Assembly: GCA_031274115.1 (NCBI GenBank)
Contig: JAISQP010000072.1
Span: 1-20,969 of the forward strand
DNA from: Synergistaceae bacterium
GTDB lineage: Bacteria; Synergistota; Synergistia; Synergistales; Synergistaceae
DNA length: 20,969 nt
Direction: 5' to 3'
Positions 3,528 to 5,559 of this stretch are shown in pieces (positions within the stretch are counted from its first letter, which is position 1; each line of letters opens with the position of its first letter). A program made the position numbers and the translations under genes. The notes under the pieces are model-generated. The model had not been told where the DNA came from, made no database searches, and saw only the letters and a program-made list of their open reading frames with translations.

Positions 3528-3536
3528 TGTTATAAT
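3528..3536 (+). promoter_or_regulatory. Extended -10 promoter facing right
   Basis: TGTTATAAT is a perfect TATAAT hexamer with an upstream TG one base away. There is no recognisable -35 at 16-18 bases, as is usual for extended -10 promoters. Transcription should begin around 3541-3543, exactly at the left arm of the inverted repeat, and would produce the structured RNA described next. Confidence 0.5.
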
Positions 3537-3540
3537 TAGC

Positions 3541-3687
3541 GAGGCCCCGGTAATGGGACGCCCGGTCGAGCTTCCGACTCGACCGGGTCTTACAACCAAC
3601 CTCGGCCTATCGAGTCACCACTCGAATAAGCGTTTTGAAGAGCTTTACGAAGAGGGCCGCCCATACAAGTGGGCGGTTCTTCTTTTT
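3541..3687 (+). ncRNA. Candidate small structured RNA, possibly antisense to the 39-codon ORF
   Basis: A transcript starting near 3541 would be about 147 bases and contain several helices. AGGCC (3542-3546) pairs with GGCCT (3604-3608) and encloses a 10-bp hairpin (3561-3570 with 3578-3587). A small hairpin follows (3610-3614 with 3621-3625), and then a strong terminator ends it at 3687. The terminator stem includes G-U pairs that exist only in plus-strand RNA, favouring plus-strand transcription. It does not match 6S RNA, tmRNA, SRP RNA or RNase P as far as I can see. From 3607 to 3687 it is fully complementary to the 3' two thirds of the minus-strand small ORF. Confidence 0.42.
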
Positions 3688-3726
3688 ACACTTTTTTCTG
3701 TGCTTTTTGCGCTTCTTCTCGCTCAC
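3607..3726 (-). CDS. Small basic membrane-type peptide (39 codons), candidate type I toxin
   Basis: Starts with GTG at 3726 and stops with TAG at 3607-3609. A near-perfect Shine-Dalgarno (GGGAGGAGG) ends about seven bases before the start, the best ribosome binding site in the window. The product has a very basic N-terminal half (VSEKKRKKHRKKCKKKNRP) followed by a hydrophobic, probably helical segment (LVWAALFVKLFKTLIRVV) and ends TR. It has no recognised family. It has its own extended -10 promoter about 70 bases upstream, and a strong candidate antisense transcript overlaps it. Small size, cationic plus membrane-seeking character and a folded leader fit a type I toxin, but an ordinary small basic protein is possible. 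The lysine-rich half could also be a chance translation of a purine-rich tract. Confidence 0.42.
   Translation of the reverse strand: MSEKKRKKHRKKCKKKNRPLVWAALFVKLFKTLIRVVTR
3653..3687 (+). terminator. Strong rho-independent terminator
   Basis: The 3653-3663 arm pairs with 3670-3680 (core CCGCCCA / TGGGCGG, extended by two G-U and two Watson-Crick pairs) around the loop TACAAG. A TCTTTTT tail follows. On the minus strand the G-U positions become mismatches, so it works mainly rightward. Confidence 0.75.
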
Positions 3727-3742
3727 GATTCTACCTCCTCCC

Positions 3743-3774
3743 GCTCTCGCGTTTGGAGGTTTCCTCCCGAGAGC
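3743..3774 (-). promoter_or_regulatory. Leader hairpin with an alternative partner for the small ORF's ribosome binding site
   Basis: In the minus-strand leader, GCTCTCG and CGAGAGC (plus positions 3768-3774 and 3743-3749) form an outer stem around an inner GGAGG-AAA-CCTCC hairpin. The CCTCC could instead pair with the GGAGG of the true ribosome binding site just downstream (3733-3741). Two mutually exclusive folds controlling the start codon would be typical of type I toxin messengers. Confidence 0.4.
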
Positions 3775-3801
3775 CCTGTATTTCTCCGGGGCCTCTGGGA
3801 C

Positions 3802-3810
3802 ATTATAGCA
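3802..3810 (-). promoter_or_regulatory. Extended -10 promoter facing left
   Basis: On the minus strand, TGCTATAAT is a perfect -10 with the extended TG. There is no convincing -35. The predicted start is at about 3795, the right arm of the inverted repeat, leaving a roughly 70-base structured leader before the GTG of the 39-codon ORF. Confidence 0.5.
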
Positions 3811-3825
3811 AGAGGTAATTTATAA

Positions 3826-3926: not shown

Positions 3927-3954
3927 TATGACAATAATCATGGGGGGTTGCCAA

Positions 3955-5559
3955 ATGTCCATAGTTTACCTCAGGAACAAGAAGAACGGGGTCACTTACG
4001 TCTATGAATCAAAGGGATATTGGGACAAGGAAAAAAAACAAGCCCGCAATCAGCGGAAATACATCGGTAAGATCGACCCCGCCACCGGAGAGATAATCCA
4101 CTCGAAGAAATATCAGGGCGCCGCCCAGCAGTCGGCGGAGCAGGGGCTGTTGTCCTGCCAAGAGCTGCGGAGCAGCTTCTACGGGGCAACGTATCTCTTC
4201 GACACAATAGGCGAAAAACTGGGCGTCACGGAGGATCTCAAAAAATGCTTTCCCGATTCCTATCGGCAGATAATGTCCATCGCCTACTACCTGATAATGG
4301 AGAACTACAATCCGTTGAGCCGGTTTCCCAAATGGGCGCGGACACACGCGAACCCATGCGGCAGAATCATCCCCTCGCAGAGGGGAAACGAGTTCTTCGC
4401 CGCGTTCAAAGAGGAAGAGATACATAAATTTTTTCAGCTTCAGCACAAGCGCAGGTCCGAGAACGAATACCTCGTCTACGGCGTCGCCTCGGTGGCGTCG
4501 TTCTCCAAATCGCTCAAGCGAGCCAGGCTCAACCTGGACAAAGGCCCGGATCCTCTGTCGCACGTCAATCTCGCCGTGGTCTTCGGGGAATCCTCCAGAT
4601 TGCCCGTTTACTTCAAAACGCTGCCGATTAACATCACGGACGCCAAGGCGGTTCCCGGCATACTTTCCGACATAGGCTTCCTCAGCAACGAAAACACGAA
4701 GCTCGTGATGGGCCGGGGGTTCTACAGCGAAAAAAACGTCAACGAGCTGTACAAGGATCGCCGTAACTTTCTGATCGCCGCCAAGATGGCAACTAAGCCG
4801 GTCAGGGAAAAACTTGACGAGGCGCGCGACAGGATGACGTACCAAAACCACTACAGCACCAAGTACGGCATATACTACGATTCGTTCCTCATGAATTGGG
4901 ATTACAGCGAGACAAGACCGCGAACGGGGGATGTTTTCAAGGACGCCCGCAACATGTACCTGCATCTTTTCTATAACGACCAGAGGGCCGCGGACGATAA
5001 AATAGCGCTGAACAAGCTGCTCGACAATCTGGAGGAGGAGTTGGCCTCCGGATGGCTGATTCCGGAATACGAAAAGTTCTACGCCAGATACTACGAGATA
5101 TTGAACAACCACCCAGAGAGAAGGCTCTCCATAACCCAAAAACAGGACGCCGTCGCCGGCGACAGGAAAAATTACGGATACTTCGCGTTCATATCCAACG
5201 ATATCAAGGAACCGCTGCAGGCTCTCGACGTCTACTGCGCCAAATCAATGATAGAGACGGCGTTCGGGAACATCAAGGAGCGCGTTAACATGCGGAGGAC
5301 CTCCGAATATTCGGAGGAAAACATCGAGGGACGGCTGTTCGTGCAGTTCGTCGCCCTGATCTACATGTCGTACATAAAAAAAACGATGAACGAGAACGAC
5401 CTTTACAGAAGGTATACCATGCATGAGCTGCTGGACGAACTCGACGTGATAGAGCGCTTCGAACAGCACGGGAAGAAGCCTTTTCTCGGAGAGATCACCA
5501 AAAAACAGCTGTATCTGTACGAACGCCTGGGAGTCCGCCCGCCGCATTGGTATAATTAA
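3955..5559 (+). CDS. IS4/IS1634-like transposase with both catalytic aspartates apparently replaced
   Basis: The 534-residue protein follows the IS1634/IS4 DDE transposase layout. It has an N-terminal domain (MSIVYLRNKKNGVTYVYES), the region EYLVYGVASVASFSKS, the strand HVNLAVVFGESSRLPVYFKTLP, the strand KLVMGRGFYSEKNVNELY, and a C-terminal AKSMIETAFGNIKERVNMRR. In active relatives the first and second motifs normally read VYD-x-T-S and VMD-K/R-GFYS. Here the aspartates are glycine (G176 and G253, both GGC), while the glutamate (E434) remains. The ORF has no stop or frameshift. I chose the ATG at 3955 because GGGGGG lies seven bases upstream and the predicted transcription start lies between the two ATGs. 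I found no terminal inverted repeats or target duplications. It may be a recently dead copy or a retained DNA-binding protein. Confidence 0.8.
   Translation: MSIVYLRNKKNGVTYVYESKGYWDKEKKQARNQRKYIGKIDPATGEIIHSKKYQGAAQQSAEQGLLSCQELRSSFYGATYLFDTIGEKLGVTEDLKKCFPDSYRQIMSIAYYLIMENYNPLSRFPKWARTHANPCGRIIPSQRGNEFFAAFKEEEIHKFFQLQHKRRSENEYLVYGVASVASFSKSLKRARLNLDKGPDPLSHVNLAVVFGESSRLPVYFKTLPINITDAKAVPGILSDIGFLSNENTKLVMGRGFYSEKNVNELYKDRRNFLIAAKMATKPVREKLDEARDRMTYQNHYSTKYGIYYDSFLMNWDYSETRPRTGDVFKDARNMYLHLFYNDQRAADDKIALNKLLDNLEEELASGWLIPEYEKFYARYYEILNNHPERRLSITQKQDAVAGDRKNYGYFAFISNDIKEPLQALDVYCAKSMIETAFGNIKERVNMRRTSEYSEENIEGRLFVQFVALIYMSYIKKTMNENDLYRRYTMHELLDELDVIERFEQHGKKPFLGEITKKQLYLYERLGVRPPHWYN

Follow-up and report, generated by a model that had tools for sequence, protein, structure and literature searches.

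A putative type I toxin-antitoxin cassette in Synergistota with an antisense terminator inside the toxin reading frame

The window, a stretch of 20,969 nucleotides from a Synergistaceae bacterium, carries two short overlapping predicted genes on opposite strands. The minus-strand gene encodes a 39-residue cationic and hydrophobic peptide, a putative type I toxin, in an open reading frame (ORF) running from GTG to TAG (3726-3607, stop included). Within a Shine-Dalgarno (SD) stretch, GGGAGGAGGT (3733..3742, minus strand), GGAGG lies 7 nt upstream of the GTG. An extended -10 element, TGCTATAAT (3810-3802, minus strand), is separated from the start codon by 75 nt, and a transcription start near 3795 would be reasonable for the peptide mRNA. 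This promoter is absent from a consensus promoter scan of the window, which demands a -35 match, and the window scan called no terminator for the peptide mRNA. The leader contains an anti-SD motif (ACCTCC, 3755..3760, minus strand) that could pair with GGAGGT at 3738-3733. An earlier note, made from the letters of this DNA, had described a 39-codon minus-strand ORF with a good ribosome binding site, an extended -10 about 70 bases upstream and a leader able to fold over the ribosome binding site; all three were located at these positions.

On the plus strand, the promoter scan identifies a -10 hexamer at 3531-3536 that is preceded by TG (an extended -10, TGTTATAAT) and followed by GAGG at 3541. 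The hexamer lies beyond the peptide stop codon (3607-3609) and hence outside the toxin ORF. An antisense RNA, the putative antitoxin, is predicted from 3541 to 3687 on the basis of this promoter, a terminator and its fold. It would overlap 81 of the 120 bases of the coding sequence, in agreement with the facing transcript that the earlier note had drawn against two thirds of the ORF. The scanned terminator hairpin (3652..3681, plus strand) lies over the codons for KNRPLVWAAL, with its T tract over Lys codons, such that a candidate antisense gene with its own promoter and terminator overlaps the toxin gene. A covarying hairpin with a perfect 10-bp stem (3561..3587) is common to both strands, serving as the 5' hairpin of the antisense RNA and the 3'UTR hairpin of the mRNA. 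A 90-aa plus-strand ORF also overlaps the cassette (3553-3825).

Single hairpins are cheap in this window: the scan returned 3 terminators against 2.3 expected, which is near expectation, and 6 promoter-like sites against 0.9 expected. The predicted antisense RNA (z -5.4) and the predicted mRNA (z -6.0) each fold better than 200 of 200 shuffled sequences. The locus does not appear to be a chance arrangement because the same anatomy is conserved in diverged copies. A known RNA family was considered and rejected at this threshold: the plus-strand RNA matched no Rfam family at gathering score, in line with the earlier note, and seven low-threshold matches (rimP, IMES-5, ES173 and others) fell far below the cut-off.

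Copies of the cassette were sought in related genomes. The best matches of livK, a neighbouring gene, are from Synergistaceae metagenome-assembled genomes (MAGs; for example L001, 85% identity over the full length), and the window is therefore placed in this family. Conserved synteny beside livK was rejected, as blastn and tblastn found no clear copy at 34 livK loci. At a threshold of 1e-4, blastn likewise matched none of the DNA upstream of eight of these loci to the window (just 247 bases are present there in L007). A DNA search of 14 livK-relative genomes located two copies elsewhere, L036 and L035 (the latter with its 5' part replaced), and a family-wide search gave a match at E<=0.001 in 8 of 52 genomes. 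R1, a covariance model of the antisense 5' half, was then built from nine copies. It produced matches at E<=0.05 in 26 of 185 Synergistota genomes. At E<=1e-4 the matches numbered 28, spread over 16 of the 185, with up to four per genome; eight of the 28 were model-building copies and 20 were new. On this check for further copies, made in related genomes, the earlier proposal came out favourably. In a control of 398 genomes from the phylum of a Eubacteriaceae MAG, the best E was 5.9e-4 and five genomes had matches at E<=0.01; first-look candidates, scored per genome, numbered 11 in this control against 25 in the Synergistota scan.

An obvious intact family ORF is kept in 15 of the 28 R1 matches, eight of these being from the model set. 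One match belongs to a second, hydrophobic-peptide family described below, and the other 12 are cut by contig ends, frameshifted, decayed or lack an assignable ORF. Two more intact ORFs were found in L081 (E 0.0021) and the IMG/VR contig L109. At L060:1469-1530 (the same place as L078), a remnant retains both -10 boxes and both of the mRNA arms described below, with the ORF lost. Four copies of one genome, G154 (L072, L091, L094, L096), have by eye the C-terminal half of the peptide in frame with no clear start, and by the same judgement are decaying or start elsewhere.

The window peptide has a net charge of +15. Its first half is rich in Lys/Arg and its second half hydrophobic, with a Pro/Trp hinge between them, so that translation confirms the two halves previously described. 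Net charge is +9 to +15 in 28-40 residues for 16 of the 17 family peptides (L081 is +2), which is extreme at this length. AlphaFold2 modelled the single sequence as two helices (residues 3-17 and 19-38) with a mean pLDDT of 85.5 and a pTM of 0.34. No match was found for six family peptides in Pfam at cut-off or NCBIfam, nor for the window peptide in PHROGs. Profile A3 matched no PDB chain at E<=10, the peptides being very short, and the protein database held no candidate for L071, a 40-aa relative.

Conservation of the frame in relatives was a preset test of the earlier proposal. Seventeen ORFs of the family, including that of the window, can be aligned as peptides. In eight disjoint ORF pairs, differences at codon positions 1/2/3 number 66/57/90 (p 0.017). 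BLOSUM similarity is 724 compared to 500 +/- 35, a value reached by none of 500 redistributions of the same substitutions, with the caveat that codons were aligned along the protein alignment, a procedure biased towards similarity. Both tests favour a coding frame. The product is a small peptide (<60 aa) with a conserved frame and, in the single-sequence model, a hydrophobic helical segment.

The anatomy of the locus is conserved alongside the frame. Alignment A5 comprises 16 copies, window included; L067, in which the 5' part has been replaced, L077, whose 3' arm is cut by the end of its contig, and L094 were kept out of it. For the antisense -10, 14 of the 16 copies have an exact TATAAT; L068 retains five of the six bases and L081 four, and the scan calls no antisense -10 in L081. 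Among the 15 copies that reach far enough, the -10 of the peptide promoter is exact in 13 and keeps five of six bases in the other two. The antisense terminator is present in 15 of 16 copies, with none in L070. In all 14 copies examined for its position (L109 and L070 left out), it lies inside the ORF, where the stem coincides with the hinge codons and the T tract with Lys-rich codons. As read from these alignments, the same basic stretch specifies protein on one strand and a predicted terminator on the other. The terminator could itself account for some of the Lys conservation, given that the Lys codons are the complement of its T tract.

This double use bears on whether the locus instead encodes a non-coding regulatory RNA pair or a non-toxic small protein under antisense control, for example a phage or membrane accessory peptide. 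Such readings gain from the complementarity of Lys codons and T tract in every copy examined, and the toxicity of the peptide is itself putative. However, the hydrophobic half, which lies C-terminal to the terminator, is also alike among the aligned peptides. Their similarity also exceeds that of all redistributions, even if the protein-guided alignment favours this outcome, and layered self-inhibition of the kind proposed below has been described for toxin mRNAs (PMC6733600). We consider these readings unlikely.

A further feature, absent from the text of the earlier note and added here, is a 10-nt complementarity between the 5' end (3795-3786) and the 3' end (3550-3541) of the window mRNA, both on the minus strand. 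The arms are GAGGCCCCGG and CCGGGGCCTC, the latter being the complement of the antisense 5' end, and their duplex energy of -25.2 kcal/mol was equalled by none of 200 shuffles. The arms change together between copies, with GAGGTCCCGG/CCGGGACCTC in L070 and GCGCGGCCCC/GGGGCCGCGC in L069. Across 16 copies, a 12-pair arm helix is 90.6% paired and five pairs are changed on both sides, which 3 of 500 shuffles reach; there are eight such both-sides-changed cells compared to 2.0 in shuffles. Sliding the partner arm by one column lowers pairing to about 50%. The arm duplex outperforms mononucleotide shuffles (at most 1/200) in 13 of 15 copies tested, among them L094, whose ORF is not clearly of the family. 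The exceptions are L090 and L071, whose arms are matched by 37/200 and 14/200 shuffles respectively. Mean pairing energy is -27.3 kcal/mol with a copy's own arm versus -21.8 kcal/mol with those of other copies, and the own 3' arm is the best partner of the 5' arm in only 5 of 15 rows. When the 15 mRNAs were folded, arm pairing was predicted with a probability close to 1.00 in 13 and close to 0 in the other two, L090 and L071.

Two local elements were assessed in the same way. The 3'UTR hairpin covaries, with 5 of its 10 pairs changed on both sides and 96.9% of cells paired. The leader helix between anti-SD and SD is 91.7% paired in 16 copies, with one compensatory pair, a number reached by 292 of 500 shuffles. 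Occlusion of the SD by the long-distance pairing itself was unsupported by the folding of 15 mRNAs: removal of the 3' arm raised predicted SD accessibility by >0.1 in only one copy (L090) and lowered it in L077 and L097. In these models, it seems to be the local leader hairpin that hides the SD, whether or not the 3' arm is present. The covarying helices support a structured toxin mRNA, for which self-inhibition is putative, and we infer the role of the long-distance pairing by analogy.

The low-scoring R1 matches include four loci (L100, L103, L104, L105) with a GAATCACC...GGTGATTC leader helix over the SD. These loci have a similar 3'UTR hairpin and a terminator loop that pairs with the mRNA 5' end, and three of them encode a different, strongly hydrophobic peptide. 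A model of their leader, R2, was built from the four; at E<=0.001 it recovered eight loci, half of them new, spread over 7 of 185 Synergistota genomes. In six of the eight, the SD is followed by a peptide of 33-38 residues (L103:2887-3000, L104:441-542, L100:581-691; also L114, L115, L116), and the scan for a peptide behind the SD found none in L111 and L117. The 5'-3' pairing is complete in 8/8 copies and compensatory in 3/7 pairs. It looks like an RNA feature rather than the ends of a transposable element, as the 3' arm is inside the terminator loop. These loci may represent a second type I family, with a peptide unrelated to the first and a similar RNA scaffold. The second-family leader pattern matched no viral contig. 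Two matches of another pattern, L118 and L119, were set aside as chance, having no model matches and, for L118, a site within a long ORF. Separately, L084:489-575 (minus strand) encodes a third peptide type of 29 aa, with a GTG start, an SD before it and an R1-like hairpin after it; its R1 match is weak (E 0.02).

The cassettes occur in varied genomic surroundings. In the window, a DDE_Tnp_1 transposase gene (3928-5559, plus strand) begins 0.1 kb from the cassette, and the L071 copy adjoins a similar DDE transposase fragment. Judging from translations, several other copies sit beside what we take to be ordinary chromosomal genes. The phage-like contig L109 contains an intact first-family cassette beside an ORF that, judged by its sequence, probably encodes a tail sheath protein. 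Two genomes share a stretch of homologous DNA in which different cassettes occupy one position, with 68% identity on both sides: a first-family cassette in G037 (L063) and a second-family one in G046 (L103). That in G037 is flanked by genes for a tail baseplate hub protein and a tape measure protein. This suggests exchange of cassettes in prophages. The L063 copy had no match in annotated phage records and the window copy none in annotated plasmid records.

Copies at unrelated places, the adjoining DDE transposase sequences of the window copy and L071, and a pair from one genome (L089/L066) that is 94% identical over just the cassette would all suit a small MITE-like mobile element. The arms would then be terminal inverted repeats for a transposase, with the -10 boxes and ORF incidental, and the ORF-less remnant L060 does keep both ends. 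We nevertheless regard this as very improbable. Genomes hold at most four copies at E<=1e-4, and aligned ORF pairs other than L089/L066 differ by at least 13% of bases. The spacing from -10 to arm is unequal at the two ends (6 versus 4 nt in the window and most of nine copies), the internal ORF, anti-SD, terminator and hairpin are all conserved, and in the second family the 3' arm sits in a terminator hairpin loop.

We conclude, with a probability of roughly 85%, that the cassette represents a new family of type I toxin-antitoxin modules, its toxicity, transcription and antisense control being putative. At the level of sequence, the analysis demonstrates a conserved ORF, both -10 boxes, a terminator, covarying helices and copies at unrelated sites; we infer that the locus is transcribed, that the peptide is toxic, that the full-length mRNA is inert and is processed at its 3' end, and that the antisense RNA acts on it. 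The type I proposal of the earlier note is thus supported by the conserved frame, the R1 copies and the negative Rfam result, with toxin and antitoxin as provisional terms. In the proposed mechanism, the peptide encoded by the minus-strand mRNA would be small and strongly cationic, have a hydrophobic C-terminal half and probably act at the bacterium's own membrane. Two layers would silence the message: a leader hairpin in which the anti-SD covers the SD, and pairing of the first and last mRNA bases, which would close the transcript at full length. Once its 3' end was lost, the mRNA would open. The plus-strand RNA would pair with the 3'UTR and with all but the first third of the ORF, blocking or destroying the opened message.

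Several known systems share parts of this design. TxpA/RatA, BsrG/SR4 and Fst/RNAII, to which the locus was originally likened, have convergent genes in which the antisense RNA overlaps the 3' part of the toxin gene, as in the Synergistota cassette. That convergent 3' overlap fits. The charge order of TxpA, BsrG and Fst differs from that of the Synergistota peptide, and we know of no covarying 5'-3' arm pair of this type in these systems; nor did the locus match any Rfam RNA at gathering score. The hok/sok mRNA also folds back 5' to 3', as here; unlike the Synergistota cassette, its peptide is of another class and size and its antisense RNA lies over the leader region.

By virtue of the 5'-3' mRNA pairing, AapA is closer in mechanism than the systems originally proposed. 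As published, full-length aapA3 mRNA is closed by a 5'-3' long-distance interaction whose 3' arm itself traps the SD (PMC6733600), transient local hairpins cover the SD in aapA/IsoA systems, several copies of which occur per genome (PMC6733600, PMC8309996), and AapA1 is a 30-aa peptide whose helix is flanked by two positively charged ends (PMC8309996). The Synergistota cassette resembles aapA/IsoA of Helicobacter pylori (Epsilonproteobacteria), as described there, in its short cationic helical peptide (the helix here modelled), its multiple copies, a local leader hairpin predicted over the SD and its 5'-3' mRNA interaction, seen here as complementarity with covariation. It differs in the position of its antisense RNA, which would begin past the stop codon and overlie the gene's 3' part. 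The IsoA3 promoter, by comparison, probably lies inside the toxin frame, since its -10 box was mutated with the toxin amino acids kept (PMC6733600). In addition, the 3' arm here pairs with the first leader bases, with little predicted effect on the SD. No sequence relation to AapA was found in Pfam at cut-off, NCBIfam or the PDB profile search with these very short peptides. By analogy, AapA3/AapA1 is the closest described mechanism, and the Synergistota cassette is not aapA/IsoA itself. The basic-first topology, once taken as the mark of a new family, is not new in itself given the published description of AapA1 (PMC8309996); what does stand out is the extreme charge.

According to a 2025 paper, type I systems were known only from Proteobacteria, Firmicutes and Tenericutes, to which that work adds Cyanobacteria, and it gives search bias as the presumed cause of so narrow a range (PMC12390103). 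The Synergistota cassette would resemble MsoT1/MsoA1 of Microcystis, a type I system reported from a cyanobacterium, in lying outside the three classical phyla (PMC12390103). A search of full-text literature, with subscription papers mostly outside its reach, turned up no report of a type I system in Synergistetes/Synergistota; one paper that it listed concerns polymorphic toxins. As the present family was found through RNA anatomy with testable covariation, this suggests a search route in other phyla. The occurrence of two peptides on similar scaffolds also makes it possible to ask whether the toxin or the RNA is the unit of selection. We tentatively propose, while thinking it rather less probable than not, that one RNA scaffold (5'-3' arms, anti-SD leader and 3'UTR/antisense hairpin) is shared in Synergistota by at least two unrelated toxins and that phages carry and exchange such cassettes at a fixed tail-gene position. 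If so, the RNA part, not the toxin, would be the conserved unit, and the cassettes may serve the phages that carry them, for example in competition or in controlling the host.
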